IMG/VR virus record: IMGVR_UViG_3300025646_000304
Location: 1-26,487 of that record
Length of the DNA: 26,487 nt
From: a virus
Strand: one strand, 5' to 3'
The position numbers and the translations under genes are program-made. Below are positions 15,697 to 25,754 of this stretch, piece by piece (position 1 is the first letter of the stretch; each line of letters opens with the position of its first letter). The notes beneath the pieces were generated by a model. The model did no database searches. It saw only the letters and a program-made list of their open reading frames with translations, and was not told where the DNA came from.

Positions 15697-15704
15697 GCCA
15701 CTAA

Positions 15705-15755
15705 GGGCGGCTAGGGCTTCGTGCCCGAAAACGGTAGGCGTAACCGCTGCCGCCC
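15705..15755 (+). promoter_or_regulatory. Three-way-junction-like RNA/DNA element before the primase gene
   Basis: The gap 15697-15778 contains GGGCGGC (15705-15711), perfectly complementary to GCCGCCC (15749-15755). The closed region holds two further hairpins: GGGC-TTCGT-GCCC (15714-15726) and CGGT-7 nt-ACCG (15732-15746), separated by GAAAA. This gives a compact three-way junction of 51 bases, 24 bases before the primase-helicase ATG. It could act as a 5' leader control element or, as single-stranded DNA, as a priming/origin signal. Confidence 0.55.
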
Positions 15756-15778
15756 ACTATTACTCGCCGGAACCACTG

Positions 15779-18643
15779 ATGAGTCCAACAACTGATTTTC
15801 TGCACGACGTTCTGCCGGAAGCCGGACGGTATTGTGTAGTCGGAATTAGCGGGGGAAAGGTCCTCCAAGAATTTGTAGATGACATCGACACGGTAGCAGA
15901 GCGCGCAGAGAGCTTTGCTGACCGCAAGATCGACGCGTATTTTGCCGTTGCCTCGTTCAAAGAAGGCAGCGAGAAGCGCACCCAAGAAAACGCCCAGTGG
16001 ATGAAGTCATTCTGGCTTGATCTCGACTGCGGGCCGGGCAAGCCATACCCAGACCAAGCGACAGCACTCGAAGCGCTTGAAGACTTTAGAGTTAAAGCCA
16101 AGCTGCCGCACCCAAGCATCGTCAACTCTGGCAACGGCGTTCATGTTTATTGGCTGCTCACGCAGTACATCCCAAGCTCGGCGTGGTCGCCAATCGCAGA
16201 ACGACTGAAGGCCGCGTGCGCACAGCTAGGGTTGAACGCTGACCCAGCAGTTACCGCTGACGAAGCGCGTATTCTGCGTGTACCGCAGACCCTGAACTTC
16301 AAAAATCCAAACGATCCGAAGTGGGTTACGCAGTATGAGAAAGGCGAGCCAGTCGACGTTGACCTGTTTGCAGACTGCCTAGCTGCGCTTGATCTGCCAG
16401 AACCAAAACGCGAGCGGGTCAAGGTAGACACCTCGCAGCTGAGCGAAACCGCTAAAGCCCTGCTGGGTAACAAGCAGTCGCGGTTCGGGCTTATCGTAGC
16501 CAAGACCAAAAAAGGTAAGGGCTGCAACTTCCTCAAGTACGCGATCGAAAACCAAGCTGAGTTAGAAGAGCCGCTTTGGCGAGCCAGCCTGTCTATCGCA
16601 TGGGCTTGTGATGATCGCGACACGGCCATACACAGAATATCTGAACGGCATCCGGGTTATACACCGGAAGACACGATTGAGAAGGCATGCCAGACCAAGG
16701 GGCCATACACCTGCGCGGTGATTAAGGGGCTAAGCGCTGACCTCTGCCAAGGCTGCACGCACAAGATCACCAGCCCGATCCAGCTCGGTGCTGAAGTTAA
16801 GCGTGATGCTAGTGAACTGTTTGAGGTGCCGGACGAGGATGATCCGCACGGTGATGGCACGATAGCAACGCAGGTGGTTGCACAGGCGCTGTTCAAGCCG
16901 CCGTTCCCGTACTTTCGAGGCGCCAACGGCGGTGTATATCGTGAAGACAGAGATGAGGACGGGGACAAGATTGAACAGTTAATTTACGAGCATGACTTGT
17001 ACGCGTCCACCAGACTTGTTGACCCGAACGACGGTGAGTGCGTGGTGTTTCATCACGTCCTGCCACGGGACGGAGAGCGCGAGTTCATGGTGCCCATCAA
17101 GGACATGCACTCGGCAGACCAATTCAAAAAAATCCTCGGCGGCAAAGGTGTCGCTGGTAGCAAAAAACAGATGAACGAAATTATGGACTACGCAATTCGC
17201 TATACAAAAGAACTTCAGATGCGGGAAAAGGCCAAGGAAGCTAGGCTGCAATTCGGTTGGCACGCTGGCAACACCGAGTTCGTAGTAGGCAACCGGGTGT
17301 ACACCAAAGACGGTGTTTCCCATAACTACCCAAGCAGCACCACGGCCAACATCATTGACTCTTTCAATGTGAAGGGCTCGCTGGAAACTTGGAAGAAGAT
17401 TTTCAACGTGCTGAATCAGCCGGGCATGGAAGCGTTGCAGCTAGTTGCCCTGTCTGGGTTCGGCGCCCCGATGATGAAGTTCACTGGCGTAGCTGGTGGC
17501 GTAATCAACCTAATCAGTAACCACTCCGGCACGGGTAAGTCGACCGCTGGCCGTCTCGCGCTAAGCGTGTTCGGACATCCTGAGAAAACCCTGCTGACGC
17601 AGCGGGACACTATGGCCTCTCGCCAGCATCGCCTTGGCGTGCACAACAACCTCGTTGCGCTGTCTGATGAAATGACAAACGCACCAGCTGAGTTCCTGTC
17701 TGATGAAATCTACGGCACATCTCAGGGCCGTGGCCGGAACAGAATGAACGCCACCAGCAACACCGAGCGCGTCAACGAGTCAACGTGGAACCTGATCCAC
17801 CTGATGAACTCCAATGCGTCGATGATTAGCAAGCTAGTTAAGTTGAAGGCTCGACCGGACGGCGAGCTGATGCGACTCATCGAAATTCCAGTTAAGCGCC
17901 AGACTATTGAGGGCGCAGATGCCCTGTTTGCGATGCTTGAGGAAAACTACGGAGTTGCGGGCGAAGTGTACGCCCCGTGGCTGGTGAAGAACGCTGAGAA
18001 AATACCCGAGCTGCTAGACCGTCAGCGCGAGCGTATCTGGAAGAAAGTAGACAAGCGGATCGAAGAGCGTTTCCACATCGGCACCTACGCGGCCAACCTC
18101 GCATCTGGGCATGTAGCCAAGGCTCTCGGTCTGATCGAGTTCGATCTTGAAAACTTAGAAAACTGGTGCTGCGAGTTGATTAAGACCAGCCGCAGCAGCA
18201 TGCAGGCAGAGGTGATCGACGCCTACGAGTTAGTCGGCGAATTTATTTACGAAAACCTCCGCCAGACAGCCGTGATTGGGACCGAGCAAAACGTAGTCTC
18301 TACGTTCGCCAACGATTACGCCACTATCACCCCGAACGGCGGCAGCTGCACAGTGCGCTACGAGGAGGATGGCAACATGCTCTACATAGCCTACAAAAAC
18401 CTACGCGACTACTGCACACAGCGCCAGTTCACCATCGACGACGTGCTGAACGGATGCTCGGTGGCTGGCGGACCATACACATTCCGAAAGAAAACCAAGA
18501 AGCGCATGCTGGCTAAGACCCGGTACACAATGTCTCCGCCGGTTGATGCAGTCGAGTTCCATGTTGCGCCTGAAGAAGCCGAAGCGTTCATAGCGTCTAT
18601 GGAGGAGCTGCCGGAATACGAAGATGCTGAAATGGAATCTTGA
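15779..18643 (+). CDS. Primase-polymerase / DUF927-type helicase fusion
   Basis: 954 residues from the ATG at 15779, with a weak CCGGAA site. The N-terminal third is an archaeo-eukaryotic primase (prim-pol) domain: FWLDLDCG (D81, D83) and the SGNGVHVYW motif (H122). It is followed by a linker and a Cys-rich segment (TCAVIKG...LCQGC) that looks like a zinc element. The C-terminal half resembles DUF927/SF3-like helicases: FGWHAGNTEFVVGNRVY, then Walker A HSGTGKST (K587), a Walker-B-like LVALSDEM and a sensor-like LIHLMNSNAS. Such fusions serve as the replicative primase-helicase in phages and plasmids. It follows the SSB and carries a three-way-junction-like element in its leader. Confidence 0.88.
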   Translation: MSPTTDFLHDVLPEAGRYCVVGISGGKVLQEFVDDIDTVAERAESFADRKIDAYFAVASFKEGSEKRTQENAQWMKSFWLDLDCGPGKPYPDQATALEALEDFRVKAKLPHPSIVNSGNGVHVYWLLTQYIPSSAWSPIAERLKAACAQLGLNADPAVTADEARILRVPQTLNFKNPNDPKWVTQYEKGEPVDVDLFADCLAALDLPEPKRERVKVDTSQLSETAKALLGNKQSRFGLIVAKTKKGKGCNFLKYAIENQAELEEPLWRASLSIAWACDDRDTAIHRISERHPGYTPEDTIEKACQTKGPYTCAVIKGLSADLCQGCTHKITSPIQLGAEVKRDASELFEVPDEDDPHGDGTIATQVVAQALFKPPFPYFRGANGGVYREDRDEDGDKIEQLIYEHDLYASTRLVDPNDGECVVFHHVLPRDGEREFMVPIKDMHSADQFKKILGGKGVAGSKKQMNEIMDYAIRYTKELQMREKAKEARLQFGWHAGNTEFVVGNRVYTKDGVSHNYPSSTTANIIDSFNVKGSLETWKKIFNVLNQPGMEALQLVALSGFGAPMMKFTGVAGGVINLISNHSGTGKSTAGRLALSVFGHPEKTLLTQRDTMASRQHRLGVHNNLVALSDEMTNAPAEFLSDEIYGTSQGRGRNRMNATSNTERVNESTWNLIHLMNSNASMISKLVKLKARPDGELMRLIEIPVKRQTIEGADALFAMLEENYGVAGEVYAPWLVKNAEKIPELLDRQRERIWKKVDKRIEERFHIGTYAANLASGHVAKALGLIEFDLENLENWCCELIKTSRSSMQAEVIDAYELVGEFIYENLRQTAVIGTEQNVVSTFANDYATITPNGGSCTVRYEEDGNMLYIAYKNLRDYCTQRQFTIDDVLNGCSVAGGPYTFRKKTKKRMLAKTRYTMSPPVDAVEFHVAPEEAEAFIASMEELPEYEDAEMES

Positions 18644-18926: not shown

Positions 18927-21900
18927 CTAGAAGAAATCTCCCCGACCGGCCATTGCTCGCATTTCTTTGAGGTTCATGCCGCTGAGGATCTCATTTTCTA
19001 GCTGGCGAAGGTCAGAAATCATCTGTTCCTTCTCTTCAGAGTCACCGCTGGTCTTGGAAATCTGCCGGATCGCGGCACGGATCTTATTCAGACGGTTGGA
19101 GAGGTTACGCACCGCCTTAGCCATAGCCACACGCTGCGCATTTTCGTCGTCCGCCAAGAACGGATCGAGGTCTTCTGGGCGGTACTTCTGTAGCTCCAGA
19201 TACTCTTTGTACGACATGTTCACGTCGCGGGACATTTCGTAGAAGTAGCTGCGCATGCCAGAGCCTTCTTCGCGGTTCAAGAAGCGGCTGAAGCCCGGCA
19301 GGGCTGCTGCGTAATCCTGAATCGACCGTGACGGACGGATGCCTGCGTAGTCGCCGAGCAGGTTGGAGGTCCACAGAAGCGCACCACCCACAGAACCGAA
19401 GTAACCACGGATCAGCTGGTCTACCTTGATCGGAGACAGGCCCTCGCCACCGAATACGGCGTGAGAAGCATCGCCAATGAAGTTCGCCAGCTCGGAGGTG
19501 TATTCCGTCTGCTGGAGGTAGGCTGGCAGGCTTGCGTACGCCTGACTGACCAACGGGCGGCCAGTGAAGAAGTTGCGGTCGATTGCCACTTCCACCATAG
19601 GCTTGAGGATCTGCGGCACTGCCATCGGGCTGGCGACACCGTTCACTAGGGCAGTAGCCAGCGCATCACGGAAGGTACGACCGTCTTCCATAGCGTTGTC
19701 GGTCATCAGGCGGTAGCTGTGCTCTGCGATGATCTTCGGCAGGAGGAACAAGTCAGTACGCAACGGTAGGCCAAAGCCACCCATGCCCGGAATCATCAGC
19801 ATGCGGTCGCGGTACATCGGATCGAGTTCTTCGTAGTCTTCGTCGCCGCCCATCATCATGGCGTACAGCATCATCATGGCAGTAGCCATGCCGAGGTTCT
19901 GATACAGACGGGTGCGAGACGCCTCGTTCTTCGGGGAGATGCCTTCGCCAGTCAGCGTGGAAGCCTGCACATTCAACGCCTGCAACCAAGCGTTAAAGAA
20001 CGGAACCATGCGAGCCATACCGTGAATGATCGGAGAGGAGCCCTTGCGGCGGAAGTTGATGATCTCAAACGAACGCTCAACCGCTTCGGCCTGAGAGGTG
20101 CCATCAGCTATAGACAGGCTGTAGACCGCCTGACGCACAGCGTTATCTGACGCCATAGAAAAGTTTTCCATCTTGTCTAGGAGACTTTTCCAGCCAGACT
20201 TGTACTTGGACTTGCTAAGGCGGCTCTCGATGTCGTTCACCACAACAGCGGCACTGTAGTCTCTGGTGCCAACTGAGGCGAAGCGTTTCAGGAAGTCATG
20301 GGCTTCACTGGTGCCGCGCAGGGTCTTAATAAACTCTTTAATTACGTAGTACGGAATCTTGATCGCCTGCATCGGGCTCAAGCCAGACGTGAACATTGCA
20401 CCGAAGGCGTCCTGCGTCAGCTGGCCGATGGAGAAGATCGGGTTGAGTACAACGGATTTACGCAGGAAGTTGGTGAACCACGATGCCTGCTTGAGGTACG
20501 GGATGCCGAGGCCTTCCTGACCCTTGAACGCTTCAATGAACAGCGGGTCTTGAGCAACGAAGGTGCGCTTCTTGCCCTCCATGTACATCTCAACCTTGCC
20601 GCGCTTGTATTCTTCGATGTCGACCTTATGGGCAGCAGTTACTTCCTGCGCCATGCCGAGGTCGATCATCGTGTTCATTAAACGAACGCCGGAGTGATTA
20701 CGCACGGCTGCTTCTACGGAGTACTCAACCCACTTCGCCATGTTGTCGAAGATGTCGTTGACCTCGTTTTCAGAGCCCTTCATTCGCTTATCTTGATATT
20801 CAGCTTTAATGCCGCTGATGAAATCAGGTAAGCCTTCCTTGTCTTCAATCTGCTTAACGCGCTGGAACGGAACGTAGTCGACGTTATCCAACCACGCTTC
20901 CGCCTTTTCTTCAGTCAGCAAGCCACCCTGAACCATTACGTCCACGGCGTTCTTACGCATCTTGTTCCAAATCTCGACTACCTTGGCTGCTTCAGCGTTG
21001 CCTTCGTAGTTCTTGAGCAGAGCGTCTACTGCTGACTCTTTAACGTGCAGCTTGCGCTCTTTCAGTAGCTTTTTGAGCTTCCTGTACTCGGCGCTGCTGG
21101 CCTTGTTTTCGGTCTTCAGCTCGTCGAGGCGGCGCTGCTTCTTGCGGGTGTCTTCGTACAGAGACTTGAGACGCTTCATCTCAAGGTAGCGGTGCAGCAC
21201 GCGCTGCGCGCGGAACGGATCTAGGCCGACAGACTTACCAAACGCTTCAACGGCACGCATCAAGCTGGCGAAGTTAGCGTCGTCATCCACAGCACGCCAC
21301 TTGTACAGCTTCTCGTCGTACGTGATGTTGCCGTATTCAAGGAAATTACTCGCTACACCCTCAGCGTGGAACGTCTGGGAGGTCGAGATTTCTAGCATGC
21401 GACCGATGATTTCGGCCTCGGCATCCGGCATTTCGCGCATACGACGGCGGGCTTCACGCTGGGCGGCTGCATCAGCGGAGACGATCTTAGTAAGCTTTTC
21501 GTCCATCCAACGGCGACCAGACGCACGGTAGTCATCCACCGTCATGCGGACCATCTTGCCGTCGACTTCCTTGTACGCGAGCTTCTTGGCGCGATCGCGA
21601 ACAGTCTTCGGAGATTCTGGCTCGCCAATAACGCCGCCCGACTCAACGGTAGCCTGTACGAAATCCTGACCAGTCTTGGCACTCAGCATCGGGCCTTCGC
21701 GGGTAGCGTTGACCGCTGCGTCACGCAGCATCCAGTTTTTAGCCGCGCTGTGAGCTATGTCGGAGAGGTCGAACAGGATCTTGTCTACGTTGCGCTCAGC
21801 AATGGCCTGCTTCCAAGACTTAGGCAAGAAGCCAATGCCCTTCAGCCAGTTCATAATGCTGTTGATGAGGCGCTTGTAGAACGGGATGTCGGTGTGCTGG

Positions 21901-24900
21901 TCTACAACGTGCGCCAGCACTTCTTCCATTACCTCGCTCGGAGAAATCTTGTAGTCGGTCTTAACCCTTCTGTAGGCTTCGTAGATTACAGACTCGGTCT
22001 TGTTCAGCGGACGCCCCTGCTTTTCTACGCGGCGGATCGCCTGACGGATGAAGTTCTCCGCCTGCATGTAACTCTGGTCGCCCATCACACCACGCCAGCC
22101 AGCATGCACACCGGCCTCGTGCACCAGAACACGAAGGGTTTCGTTCGGGTTGATGTTGCTCGCTACGAGATAGACAACAGGCTCAGCCTTGGCATTCGGG
22201 TGAACGAAGCCACCGATAACCGCACCCTGCTCAGCACCAGCCTCAACCGCAGCACGAGTCTTGCGATCAAGGCGTGGGTCGTTCATGCTGTCCAGCAGCA
22301 CTACGCGACCGGAACGGATGCCAGCGTCTAGGGCGTCCTTGTCGAATTTGCGTTCGAGAACTGCACGCAGCTCCTCGGCGCTGTCGAACTGCGGGGTAGA
22401 TACCATGCGGTTCGCACGCAGGCTGGTCTGCTTAGACTTCCACGCTTCAGCGGCGTCGAGGTGCTCTTCCACGAACTCGTTAATGATGTCCTTGGCGTCG
22501 AGCATTTCCTCTGTGGTGGCGGTCTCGTCTTGGTAGATTTCAAGCGCGTCGGTGAGGCGCTCTACTTCCTCGTCAGAAACAATATCCGCCTGCGAAACGT
22601 AGTTCAGTACCTTCTCGCCGTTCTTGACTGCCTTTCTACGCAGCTGCTTAGACATGGCGTCACGGGCGAACTCGTTGGTCTCCTGATCCACCTGATCCTG
22701 CGTGACTTGCAGGCCGAAGCTGTCCTCTTCGTTGAACTGCTCAACGTCGCGAGTGTTACGGACGCTGAAGTCTTTCGACTTTTCAATAGCGTAGATAGCG
22801 TTCTGGTACTGCCTTGGGCTGAGCGTAGTGATGCGTTTGTCAGGCGTCTTGCCGCCGGATTCCTCCAGCAGAGTTGGCATGCGTGGCAGGGCGATGTAGA
22901 CCGGCCCAACCATAGACTTCGCGCGCTCTTCGCGCTCGATCCGAGCCTGTGCCTGTTTCTTGAGCGTATCTATTGTCGGACGAGAAACTCTAGACTTCTC
23001 GCTGTACTCGCCTGCTTTCTCACGGCGCTCTTGAGCAAGGCGATCAGCCGACTCTTTAATCTGACCGTAACGCGCCTCTTTAGCGACGCCCTTCTGAATA
23101 CCTGAATCACGCTTAATAGCGGTAATGTCAGAGAGTGCACGCTGTGCCTGTTCGAGTTCCGCGCGCACTCTGGAGCGCAGCATTGACGGCTTGCTTAGTT
23201 CAGCCTTCAGCCTGCTCACAGCCTTAGTGACGGTATCTTCAGCCAGCTTCTCAGCAACGTACGCGCCGATCAGACGCTCGGTGTCAGCAGGGGTCAACGG
23301 GGCACGTTTGCCCTGACGCGCACGCTTATTGGCCTTAATCTTGTTGGCGATGTCCGCCTGCACCCGAGCCGGGTCGACAATACCTTTCAGCGTCTTAACT
23401 GCTTCAGGCACGCGCATCGGCTTGGTTTCGATCTTCCGACCTTCTTCATCAGTGCCTACCGCCACTTTTAGACGGTTAGAGACGGCGCGGATCGCAGCGT
23501 CAATCTTGGCATCTACGATCGGCCCTTCGGTGTTTAGGTCTGAAATTTCAAATTCGGCGTCTTTAACCGCCTTGGTCACTTCTTCACGGACGACCTGCGC
23601 AGTGGCACCACCGCCGCCAAGGTTTCTGACCATGAACTGACTGGTCTTATCGACGATGTCGGCGTCAAACTCATCTAGTGCAGACGAGATAGCTCCTGCT
23701 CTTCCAGCGTCTCGTACAGGAGACAGGCCACGGCCTCCCACTCCAGCCGTTTCAGATGTCTTAGCCCCCTCGGTGGTACCGGATTCGGACTTAACTCCAA
23801 CCAATTCCACGCCCTCTCCAGTTGGCGCGCCGTCATCGGTAACTTTCTGTTTGCCACCCGGAACACCACGTACGGGTGTTGGCCCTTTGGCAACTTCATT
23901 GGCAGCCTCCTGAAAAATCGTTGCGCCTTCGTCGCCGTAGTTTCTACGCACGTTCTCGACCGCAGCGGCGATGTCACCGCCCTTGGTAACGAGCGCTGAG
24001 GCTTTTTCTTGCAGGCGTAGTTTGGTGTCTTCGTCTAGAGGAGCGACCTGTTTGACTTCTGCCGCCCCCTCGTCTACTGGCGCTACTGGCGCAGCTGGAC
24101 CAGCTGCCAAACGAGCCTTGATTTCGGAGGACAGTTTCGGAGCCCATTTGGTGTTTACGTTTTCTAGCTCAACGGCGTATGCCTCTGCTTCAGCACGACC
24201 AGCGTCAGATTCAAAATCTAAGTTGGCGACCTTGCTCGCTACTTCCGTATACCGCTTGCCCTTCTTAGGCAGCGCACCTTTCTCTTTTAAGGTATCAACG
24301 TCGAAGTCGTAGTCAATGTCTTCTACCTGCGGAACCGCCTGAGCTTGGGCGCCGGCAGGTGCGCCAGTTGGCGCAGTAGTAGGAGTTACTACAGGTGCTC
24401 TAGGCGCAGGCTTGCGGTCAACAGTTTCTGGAACCTGCGGGGCTTCACCACGTTGGGTTTCGCTCAACCAACGGGCGCGCTCAGCAGCGGCTTCCTGCTC
24501 GTTATAAACAGGGTCGCTAACAGTCCCATCAGGGAATGTGACTCGGTATCCGGGGTCGTAGCCAAGCTGCGGGCGTGCTGCGCGTTCAGCCTCTTCAGCT
24601 TCCTGCTTTTGTACGGCTGCTTCAGTAGCCTGACGAGCTTCTTCCAGCCTCTCGTTTAACTTTTTCGCAGCTTTCTGCGTCTGGTACGCATTCACTAAGT
24701 TAGACGGACCACCAAGACCGGCGCCGAGCATGAAGCCGGTAGCACCGGCTTTCCCAACACCTTCAAACACGTCACCTTCAGCACCAGCCTGAATCGCGCT
24801 GATGTTAGAGAGTAGCTGACCGCTGGCTTCTTCAGCGAACTCTTGTCCGCCTTCACCAAGCGCACCAATAGCCGTGGCTTTAGTCTTACCAAGCTTAGGC

Positions 24901-25754
24901 ACAGCCTGCTTAGTGATTTCTTTAGCAATCTGCTTAGCGGCTGGAGTGCCGATAACCGCACGTTCAATAGCCGTACCGCCCGGAATCAGGGCGCTGGTGC
25001 CTAAAGTAACAGTAGCAGCGATGGCAGCATCTTCACGCGCTGCGGACATAGCCTGTTCGGTAGCGGCTTTTTCATCTACGCCATCAGCCAAGAGCTGCTC
25101 TAACACTCGGTCGTAGGTTTCCATGCCTACATCTGAGGCATTTAGCCCGCCGCCAGCGGCTACGGCGCCAACAGTACCAGCCTTGGCGATAACTTTATCG
25201 GCGACATCCTTAGTCAGAACTTTAGTCAGCGCACGAGCTACAGTAGGAGTGTTTGCAGCGGCACTAGCTACGCGCCCAGCAGGGGCGATAACGCCGGCGA
25301 GTTGCGGAACCTGAGCCACGCCCATATCCGCCAAGTACATCGGGTTCTGCGCTAGGAACGCAGCTGTGTCCCAGAAGCCTTCAGTCTCGCCAAACAGCTG
25401 CTCTTGGGCTCTGATTTTTTCAGATTTAGAGGCTTGCAAATCTTCACGACCGCGCTCAAACGCTTCACGCATCTGAGTAGCTTCTTTCGGATCATAGCCG
25501 AGGAGTTGCATCAAGCCGACGGCACCGGACCCAATGTCCATGAGCCCTTGGCCGAGTGATTTGCCAGTATCCGTTACGAACTCACCAAGCCCACGAGTGC
25601 TGGATGCAGTCTGCTCAAGTTGAGCACGCTGCTGGTCCTCTTCGTAGATGCGGTACCGTGCAATCTCCTCGGCTTGCTGCCTCGTTAGTTGCTCCGGTGA
25701 CTCAAAATTTACTACGCGCCCATCAACTGTTTCTAGAGAGTACGAGTACGCCAT
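18927..25754 (-). CDS. Giant polyvalent virion protein with HExxxH metallopeptidase-like and LPD38-like regions
   Basis: 2275 residues; ATG at 25752-25754 preceded on its strand by AGGAG. Order: a short N-terminal domain (MAYSYSLETVDGRVVNFESP); a long Gly/Ala-rich, partly hydrophobic helical region (about 50-380) of the kind seen in ejected internal virion proteins; Pro/Ala linkers and charged helices (about 390-1150). Next is a zincin-like domain with HEAGVH (H1212, E1213, H1217) and a downstream EEVLAH near 1276. After that come a coiled coil (about 1525-1570) and an LPD38-like region (about 1885-2090) with MMMLYAMMMGG and PGMGGFGLPLRTDLF. This matches polyvalent proteins described for phages that are thought to be injected with DNA and act on host targets. 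It is in the virion module, opposite in strand to replication. Peptidase activity is motif-based only. Confidence 0.88.
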   Translation of the reverse strand: MAYSYSLETVDGRVVNFESPEQLTRQQAEEIARYRIYEEDQQRAQLEQTASSTRGLGEFVTDTGKSLGQGLMDIGSGAVGLMQLLGYDPKEATQMREAFERGREDLQASKSEKIRAQEQLFGETEGFWDTAAFLAQNPMYLADMGVAQVPQLAGVIAPAGRVASAAANTPTVARALTKVLTKDVADKVIAKAGTVGAVAAGGGLNASDVGMETYDRVLEQLLADGVDEKAATEQAMSAAREDAAIAATVTLGTSALIPGGTAIERAVIGTPAAKQIAKEITKQAVPKLGKTKATAIGALGEGGQEFAEEASGQLLSNISAIQAGAEGDVFEGVGKAGATGFMLGAGLGGPSNLVNAYQTQKAAKKLNERLEEARQATEAAVQKQEAEEAERAARPQLGYDPGYRVTFPDGTVSDPVYNEQEAAAERARWLSETQRGEAPQVPETVDRKPAPRAPVVTPTTAPTGAPAGAQAQAVPQVEDIDYDFDVDTLKEKGALPKKGKRYTEVASKVANLDFESDAGRAEAEAYAVELENVNTKWAPKLSSEIKARLAAGPAAPVAPVDEGAAEVKQVAPLDEDTKLRLQEKASALVTKGGDIAAAVENVRRNYGDEGATIFQEAANEVAKGPTPVRGVPGGKQKVTDDGAPTGEGVELVGVKSESGTTEGAKTSETAGVGGRGLSPVRDAGRAGAISSALDEFDADIVDKTSQFMVRNLGGGGATAQVVREEVTKAVKDAEFEISDLNTEGPIVDAKIDAAIRAVSNRLKVAVGTDEEGRKIETKPMRVPEAVKTLKGIVDPARVQADIANKIKANKRARQGKRAPLTPADTERLIGAYVAEKLAEDTVTKAVSRLKAELSKPSMLRSRVRAELEQAQRALSDITAIKRDSGIQKGVAKEARYGQIKESADRLAQERREKAGEYSEKSRVSRPTIDTLKKQAQARIEREERAKSMVGPVYIALPRMPTLLEESGGKTPDKRITTLSPRQYQNAIYAIEKSKDFSVRNTRDVEQFNEEDSFGLQVTQDQVDQETNEFARDAMSKQLRRKAVKNGEKVLNYVSQADIVSDEEVERLTDALEIYQDETATTEEMLDAKDIINEFVEEHLDAAEAWKSKQTSLRANRMVSTPQFDSAEELRAVLERKFDKDALDAGIRSGRVVLLDSMNDPRLDRKTRAAVEAGAEQGAVIGGFVHPNAKAEPVVYLVASNINPNETLRVLVHEAGVHAGWRGVMGDQSYMQAENFIRQAIRRVEKQGRPLNKTESVIYEAYRRVKTDYKISPSEVMEEVLAHVVDQHTDIPFYKRLINSIMNWLKGIGFLPKSWKQAIAERNVDKILFDLSDIAHSAAKNWMLRDAAVNATREGPMLSAKTGQDFVQATVESGGVIGEPESPKTVRDRAKKLAYKEVDGKMVRMTVDDYRASGRRWMDEKLTKIVSADAAAQREARRRMREMPDAEAEIIGRMLEISTSQTFHAEGVASNFLEYGNITYDEKLYKWRAVDDDANFASLMRAVEAFGKSVGLDPFRAQRVLHRYLEMKRLKSLYEDTRKKQRRLDELKTENKASSAEYRKLKKLLKERKLHVKESAVDALLKNYEGNAEAAKVVEIWNKMRKNAVDVMVQGGLLTEEKAEAWLDNVDYVPFQRVKQIEDKEGLPDFISGIKAEYQDKRMKGSENEVNDIFDNMAKWVEYSVEAAVRNHSGVRLMNTMIDLGMAQEVTAAHKVDIEEYKRGKVEMYMEGKKRTFVAQDPLFIEAFKGQEGLGIPYLKQASWFTNFLRKSVVLNPIFSIGQLTQDAFGAMFTSGLSPMQAIKIPYYVIKEFIKTLRGTSEAHDFLKRFASVGTRDYSAAVVVNDIESRLSKSKYKSGWKSLLDKMENFSMASDNAVRQAVYSLSIADGTSQAEAVERSFEIINFRRKGSSPIIHGMARMVPFFNAWLQALNVQASTLTGEGISPKNEASRTRLYQNLGMATAMMMLYAMMMGGDEDYEELDPMYRDRMLMIPGMGGFGLPLRTDLFLLPKIIAEHSYRLMTDNAMEDGRTFRDALATALVNGVASPMAVPQILKPMVEVAIDRNFFTGRPLVSQAYASLPAYLQQTEYTSELANFIGDASHAVFGGEGLSPIKVDQLIRGYFGSVGGALLWTSNLLGDYAGIRPSRSIQDYAAALPGFSRFLNREEGSGMRSYFYEMSRDVNMSYKEYLELQKYRPEDLDPFLADDENAQRVAMAKAVRNLSNRLNKIRAAIRQISKTSGDSEEKEQMISDLRQLENEILSGMNLKEMRAMAGRGDFF
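23675..23899 (-). CDS. Candidate nested gene, out of frame inside the giant virion gene
   Basis: A 74-codon frame on the same strand as the giant gene but in the +1 frame, from ATG (23897-23899) to TAG (23675-23677). On its strand the start is CAGGAGGCTGCCAATG, a perfect AGGAGG with six bases to the ATG. The product is MKLPKGQHPYVVFRVANRKL to start, then PMTARQLERAWNWLELSPNP, VPPRGLRHLKRLEWEAVACL and a helical end closing in SRLH. It has three Trp, regular hydrophobic spacing and a strand-helix-PP-helix pattern, like a compact folded domain. The host frame here (residues about 619-694) is Gly/Thr/Ser/Glu-rich linker. I have an impression of similar small phage proteins (an LPLT-x-x-QL-x-x-A start with an NPVPP-x-GL-x-HL-x-x-x-EW core), but that is memory, not a search. 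Confidence 0.62.
   Translation of the reverse strand: MKLPKGQHPYVVFRVANRKLPMTARQLERAWNWLELSPNPVPPRGLRHLKRLEWEAVACLLYETLEEQELSRLH

Follow-up and report, generated by a model that had tools for sequence, protein, structure and literature searches.

A conserved +1 frame, very probably an overprinted gene, nested in the linker of a giant polyvalent-type phage protein

Does a 74-codon open frame that lies wholly inside the gene for a giant phage protein, and out of frame with it, encode a protein of its own, and if so, what might that protein do? The question is raised by the minus strand of the window (the whole stretch of viral DNA analysed here, 26,487 bases), whose plus strand carries replication genes (DNA polymerase, helicase, primase and exonuclease). 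The features concerned are the following.

18927-25754, minus strand: giant host gene, 2275 aa, a large polyvalent protein with LPD38 (open reading frame and Pfam)
19317-19844, minus strand: LPD38 domain, host residues 1971-2146 (Pfam PF18857, E 7.3e-24)
23675-23899, minus strand: putative nested gene, 74 codons, ATG start, TAG stop (23675-23677), +1 to the host frame (translation, profile matches and selection)
23675-23899, minus strand: host-frame linker over the nested gene, rich in Gly/Thr/Ser/Glu (host-frame residues)
23906-23911, minus strand: AGGAGG Shine-Dalgarno site of the nested gene, 6 bases to the ATG

An earlier note on this DNA had described a complete same-strand gene in +1 inside the giant gene, beginning at an ATG behind a perfect AGGAGG with 6-base spacing, and a low-complexity Gly/Thr/Ser/Glu linker in the overlapped host frame; all of these are present as described. 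The peptides that it quoted from the product are also correct, although its "Trp-rich" amounts to 3 Trp in 74 residues. In the window, counting both strands, AGGAGG-N6-ATG is found at this one place. The surrounding +1 frame is open for 119 codons from stop to stop, and a GTG at 23977 is an alternative start that would yield 100 aa. The length of the open frame is ordinary and is no evidence for a gene, because synonymous-codon shuffles of the giant gene often equal or exceed it: +1 runs of at least 119 codons appeared in 186 of 500 shuffles, and the exact nested interval stayed open in 28 of 500 (in seven other carriers of the nested frame, the counts out of 500 were 65 to 475 for runs of equal length and 5 to 218 for an open interval). 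The evidence for gene status is comparative. On that evidence it is very probable that this is a genuine +1 overprinted gene in the linker of a giant ejection/polyvalent-type protein, expressed from its own Shine-Dalgarno site by internal initiation.

When viral contigs were scanned with the product, three loci, L004, L005 and L006, came up at 74-78% identity, alongside a near-identical record (99.9% over the 10,559 bases in common with the window). Relative to the window, identity in the nested and host frames is 0.82 and 0.49 for L004, and 0.74 and 0.17 for L006. A product search of 18 records added L008, L009, L012 and, weakly, L019; a profile found the nested frame in further giants that had been fetched solely for the giants' own conserved parts, and more scans added further carriers, all of these +1. 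The profile matches exactly once per record, on the giant's strand and in +1, in 50 of 50 carrier records (13,328 six-frame segments), a set of one locus per contig, window included, that was selected as carriers, holds near-copies and has some hosts cut by the contig end. Stops in these records are TAG in 36, TAA in 13 and TGA in one, and the distinct products number 38, with lengths of 55-89 aa.

The overlap in related viruses that the earlier note proposed to look for was thus recovered by the profile search, in +1 on the same strand in all carriers; the stand-alone homologues it also envisaged were not found. Against GenBank phage records, tblastn gave none credible (E 4 for P0001, E 5 for L009 and E 6 for L023 as the best among the matches listed, and zero matches for the L017 and L077 products), a search of plasmids with P0001 likewise gave none credible (E 5 as the best among the matches listed), and two pattern scans of genome contigs found none. 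Weak matches outside giants in L131 and L013 were rejected, as they lie antisense to open frames of 308-315 codons.

Carriage is not universal. When loci were chosen on the giant's C-terminus (80 of 124 confirmed), 31 carried the nested frame, all in +1, 30 were without it and 19 were cut off before the place, in a sample that includes some near-copies and may lean towards carriers, as 6 of its 7 query sequences were carriers. A broader profile found nothing below E 0.067 in the remaining C-terminus-chosen loci. L021 is without the nested frame, which is also absent from 11 loci with distant giants in GenBank phage records (11 of 16 records matched). The gene is not required across the whole giant C-terminus family, because about half of the assessable C-terminus-chosen loci (30 of 61) are without it.

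With nine pairs pooled, not all of them independent, differences read in the nested frame are 96 nonsynonymous over 1,377 sites and 146 synonymous over 351 (N/S about 0.17), and in the host frame they count as 206 nonsynonymous over 1,285 and 36 synonymous over 443 (N/S about 1.97). The host ratio above 1 is a product of frozen synonymous sites and is not evidence of positive selection; the nested frame, by these counts, is under purifying selection. The weakest pair is L008-L054, with N/S of 0.49 nested and 0.69 host, and there the identity over the whole open run is 0.71 for the nested frame and 0.76 for the host. In most pairs the nested frame is more conserved than the host frame at the overlap.

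Across 23675-23899 the synonymous constraint in the host frame that the earlier note had proposed as a check takes the form of reduced change, weak or unseen in L008-L054, window-L006 and window-L012. Host 4-fold sites in the overlap changed at 3/22, 1/27, 0/15, 0/27, 0/37, 1/33, 0/22 and 6/28 in eight pairs, compared with 28-67% in the rest of the genes (28-45% for the five pairs at 0/15, 1/27, 0/27, 0/37 and 0/22). For window-L006 the figures are 7/9 in the overlap and 61% elsewhere, with a diverged host whose linker aligns at 17% identity, and for window-L012, where the host has also diverged, 6/17 and 59%. The host's lowest 60-codon stretch of synonymous change overlaps the nested gene in 7 of 7 pairs; in L014-L018 synonymous change is also low just upstream of it. 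Among the carriers, none of the signs that the note had listed as grounds for abandoning the gene was encountered, namely an unconserved frame, start or Shine-Dalgarno site, normal synonymous variation in the host frame, or +1 stops.

As a control, other alternative-frame runs of at least 58 codons were followed in five pairs. Stops in the relative break 62 of 93, and 5 of 93 are both open and at least equal to the host in identity, four of these in L045-L046; the nested run in the same five pairs is open in 5 of 5 and has identity above the host in 4 of 5. The nested gene is strongly retained, and the comparisons show it to be a selected coding sequence that possesses initiation signals of its own.

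Low synonymous change was also seen elsewhere in the giants. L045-L046 has near-equal low stretches (2/52 to 2/58) at L045 host residues 1645-1750, away from the nested gene and alongside an open antisense run at 1641-1704; a recent exchange, or a further hidden element, may lie behind this. For window-L004 the lowest synonymous change outside the nested gene lies at about 20438-20708 on the minus strand (host residues about 1685-1775, 5/33 to 6/40), before LPD38. An antisense open frame, 20298-20681 on the plus strand, overlaps this stretch, but did not emerge from the control as a frame that is conserved.

Probably small and soluble, the product would have a core of two helices, with a beta-hairpin ahead of it in the window member. 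AlphaFold models of two members both have two helices around a Pro-containing loop; the model of the window member, which adds the hairpin before the helices, has pLDDT 83.2 and pTM 0.67, and that of the second member pLDDT 78.0 and pTM 0.60. By these models the alternative frame over the host linker is apparently folded, as the earlier note had supposed. Conserved positions among the 38 members are A30 (35), P43 (37), W54 (34), L61 (38), E67 (34) and H74 (34). Hydrophobicity gives no strong membrane segment in any of the 38 (highest 19-residue mean 1.15), and the pI is 5.2 or less in 32 of them and up to 10.0 in the rest. No convincing match to the product was found in Pfam, PHROG, solved structures or GenBank phage records. 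Profile scans with the 38 members gave at best E 0.0083 in PHROG (phrog_29110, 3 members) and E 0.00086 in Pfam (DUF2922, 1 member); a profile search of PDB sequences reached E 0.7. Foldseek found no match at E <= 0.001 in PDB and BFVD (the unnamed BFVD entry A0A3Q9R534 has TM 0.64/0.72 but E 1.6), and the best VIA-align results, Z 2.0 (43 aligned, rmsd 10.5) and Z 4.2 (53 aligned, rmsd 4.4), are not significant.

The hosts of the nested gene are giants of about 1,760-2,670 aa, and all four of the relatives' giants that were scanned contain LPD38 or LPD39. Upstream, a DNA-ejection-protein gene (phrog_4287) is followed by one further gene and then the giant in each of the three relatives scanned there (L009, L022 and L107); the window's sole frame upstream of the giant, cut by the record end, has no PHROG match. 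Gene order suggests that the giant protein is probably injected, and delivery into the host cell has been proposed for phage polyvalent proteins (PMC5512222). In most hosts about a quarter of the giant precedes the nested gene. An HExxH motif (a pattern match only) is absent in 14 of 42 hosts, the window included; the nested gene precedes it in 26 of the 28 hosts that have it. In L126 (nested gene at 7363-7533) and L009 (11842-12087) the nested gene is downstream of HExxH, about half-way along the host. Elsewhere in the window, an int-alpA RNA (Rfam RF02996, 39.5 bits, gathering score 35.8) was recognized at 15704-15770 on the plus strand, just 5' of a primase/helicase-like gene at 15779-18643.

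With such a host, the likeliest role for the product would be one alongside the giant or neighbouring ejection proteins, for example as a chaperone of assembly or packaging whose synthesis keeps pace with theirs, a proposal to which something short of an even chance may be given. The earlier note's own proposal, an extra late protein that might be a partner in assembly or ejection, stands as a candidate of the same kind. The one tie between the product and the giant as partners is location, which could be just the product's birthplace. Also possible, if somewhat doubtful, is a product unrelated to the giant, a late or host-takeover protein (a regulator or anti-defence protein) that rides in the linker independently. 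Consistent with such independence, blastn shows the nested gene as a discrete island of DNA similarity, with little of the surrounding sequence matched, in 5 of 7 pairs: window 23670-23910 with L006 at 73%, L107-window at 74%, L107-L006 at 75%, L045-L046 at 94.5%, beginning 12 bases inside the gene, and L040-L042 at 94.8% over 290 bases, extending about 95 bases beyond the stop. For L014-L018 and L068-L070 the flanks are similar too and the island is not visible. Conservation of the nested frame above the host frame there in most pairs, the tolerance of the host frame to changes at the overlap, and a place that is not fixed (after HExxH in L009 and L126, before it in 26) point the same way. 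Against independence, every match to the product at E below 1e-3 in the loci scanned lay within a giant ORF. Two members matched nothing in an anti-phage defence library, a result with little bearing on anti-defence, and a role as DNA mimic is disfavoured by a charge that is not conserved (pI 4.1 to 10.0).

In L040 and L042, where the nested gene lies at 6983-7165 in both, the nested products are identical over 61 aa and the hosts are 44% identical outside; the identity may reflect recombination within the giant gene.

Whatever its partners, the nested gene is most likely translated from the mRNA of the giant gene, with ribosomes initiating internally, in the ordinary way, at the Shine-Dalgarno site of the nested gene itself, as its start regions suggest. 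The 38 distinct products start at ATG (25), GTG (7) or TTG (6). No sigma-70-like match that could serve as the gene's own promoter was found at 23500-24300. A frameshift out of the host frame, yielding a truncated host protein with an alternative C-terminus, is very unlikely, even if the frame is always +1 on the same strand, as transframe products can be. The Shine-Dalgarno sites of the starts are far stronger than those at matched places (mean -8.38 observed and -3.19 null kcal/mol, with 0 of 20,000 sets as low; 22 of 38 single loci at or below 0.05). In the null, random +1 places are each represented by their best site within an equal span, which offsets a bias, since the starts were chosen partly by Shine-Dalgarno strength; an earlier comparison without a matched null was biased by this choice. 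Furthermore, 20 of 38 have a +1 stop no more than 10 codons upstream of the nested start (immediately in front of it in L019, L020 and L023), and there is therefore little room for a frameshift origin.

That the conservation belongs to a DNA or RNA element (a packaging site or a structured RNA) and is not coding is more improbable still. The islands of nucleotide conservation in several pairs would be expected of such an element, but over the nine pairs 144 of 242 differences fall at nested codon position 3 (a share that is lower in L008-L054, 13/33, and L045-L046, 5/10), protein similarity of the product persists in frame down to 21-30% identity, and no Rfam family reaches threshold over the nested gene. 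The end of the gene also speaks for coding. The C-terminal residue is His in 34 of 38 products and Gln in 4, and the host codons at this place are NCA (CCA, GCA or ACA) in 38 of 38, followed by CTA, TTA or ATA in 37 of 38; these codons differ in their first base, and their other bases are the ones that the nested end and stop dictate. A chance open frame in a stop-poor gene, with which the ordinary length of the single sequence agrees, has almost no standing in the face of the profile matches, the selection, the Shine-Dalgarno strength and the stops that break most of the other runs in the control.

For a genuine overprinted gene, the question of age arises. Codon usage of the nested frame is atypical in most of the 38 members (mean z -6.3 relative to host windows), and that of the host frame in the overlap is atypical also (-3.0); the nested frame is the more typical of the two in 10 of 38, including the window (-2.6 and -3.9). 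A nested frame younger than the host frame is favoured by this codon usage, and is doubtful for the window's clade; GC-driven bias would be an alternative cause. A quick tree, with several long branches, was made of 81 giant C-termini; L124 (short) and near-copies sharing their first 300 residues had been left out of it, and L021 and ten known carriers brought in. Carriers cluster on this tree: their label needs 12 changes, where shuffled labels need 26.5 on average and 0 of 500 shuffles gets as low. Even without the cut-off rows at least 4 changes of label are needed, so that a single gain is a candidate only. Tentatively, the locus might be pictured as an old folded family, born de novo, that never left its birthplace over the giant's linker, is now more constrained there than its host, and serves as a dedicated assembly or ejection partner with its synthesis locked to the host mRNA.

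Annotation pipelines usually exclude genes nested in another frame (PMC5810103), and here a conserved protein family of uncultured viruses seems to have gone unseen for that reason. No report of the nested gene was found in the open-licence PMC literature on overlapping genes and polyvalent proteins that was covered. It appears to stand outside the description of LPD38 polyvalent proteins, in the main text of which the word "overlapping" is absent (PMC5512222). Overlapping proteins in general hold more disorder (PMC8227390). As a naturally overprinted locus, with a nested frame that is constrained and apparently folded lying over a linker in the host frame, it would allow origin and function to be put to a direct test.

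Overprinted genes are known from small viruses of the phiX174 type. What is shared with them is an out-of-frame gene over an older frame, with codon usage of the nested frame atypical in most members, as for a younger frame; the present gene differs in lying in a dsDNA genome of tailed-phage type, over a linker, and in being the more constrained and, according to the models, apparently folded frame. Tail assembly chaperone pairs such as gpG/gpGT involve a frameshift product encoded upstream of a long gene. The likeness here would be one of role, a small chaperone in step with a very long virion protein; the nested gene would differ in lying inside the long gene and in using internal initiation and not an upstream frameshift. 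The closest parallel in arrangement comes from fully embedded +1 phage genes, for example that of the lambda spanin Rz1, which in lambda and T7 is likewise small and wholly within a larger gene (Rz) on the same strand, in +1 in lambda (PMC6139136). The host of the nested gene is an LPD38/LPD39 giant and not an i-spanin, and its products are without the lipobox pattern (0 of 38 by a simple pattern, with any Cys in the first 35 residues in 5 of 38) and without a strongly hydrophobic segment. Its host, its product and its conservation set the nested gene apart from such known embedded phage genes.
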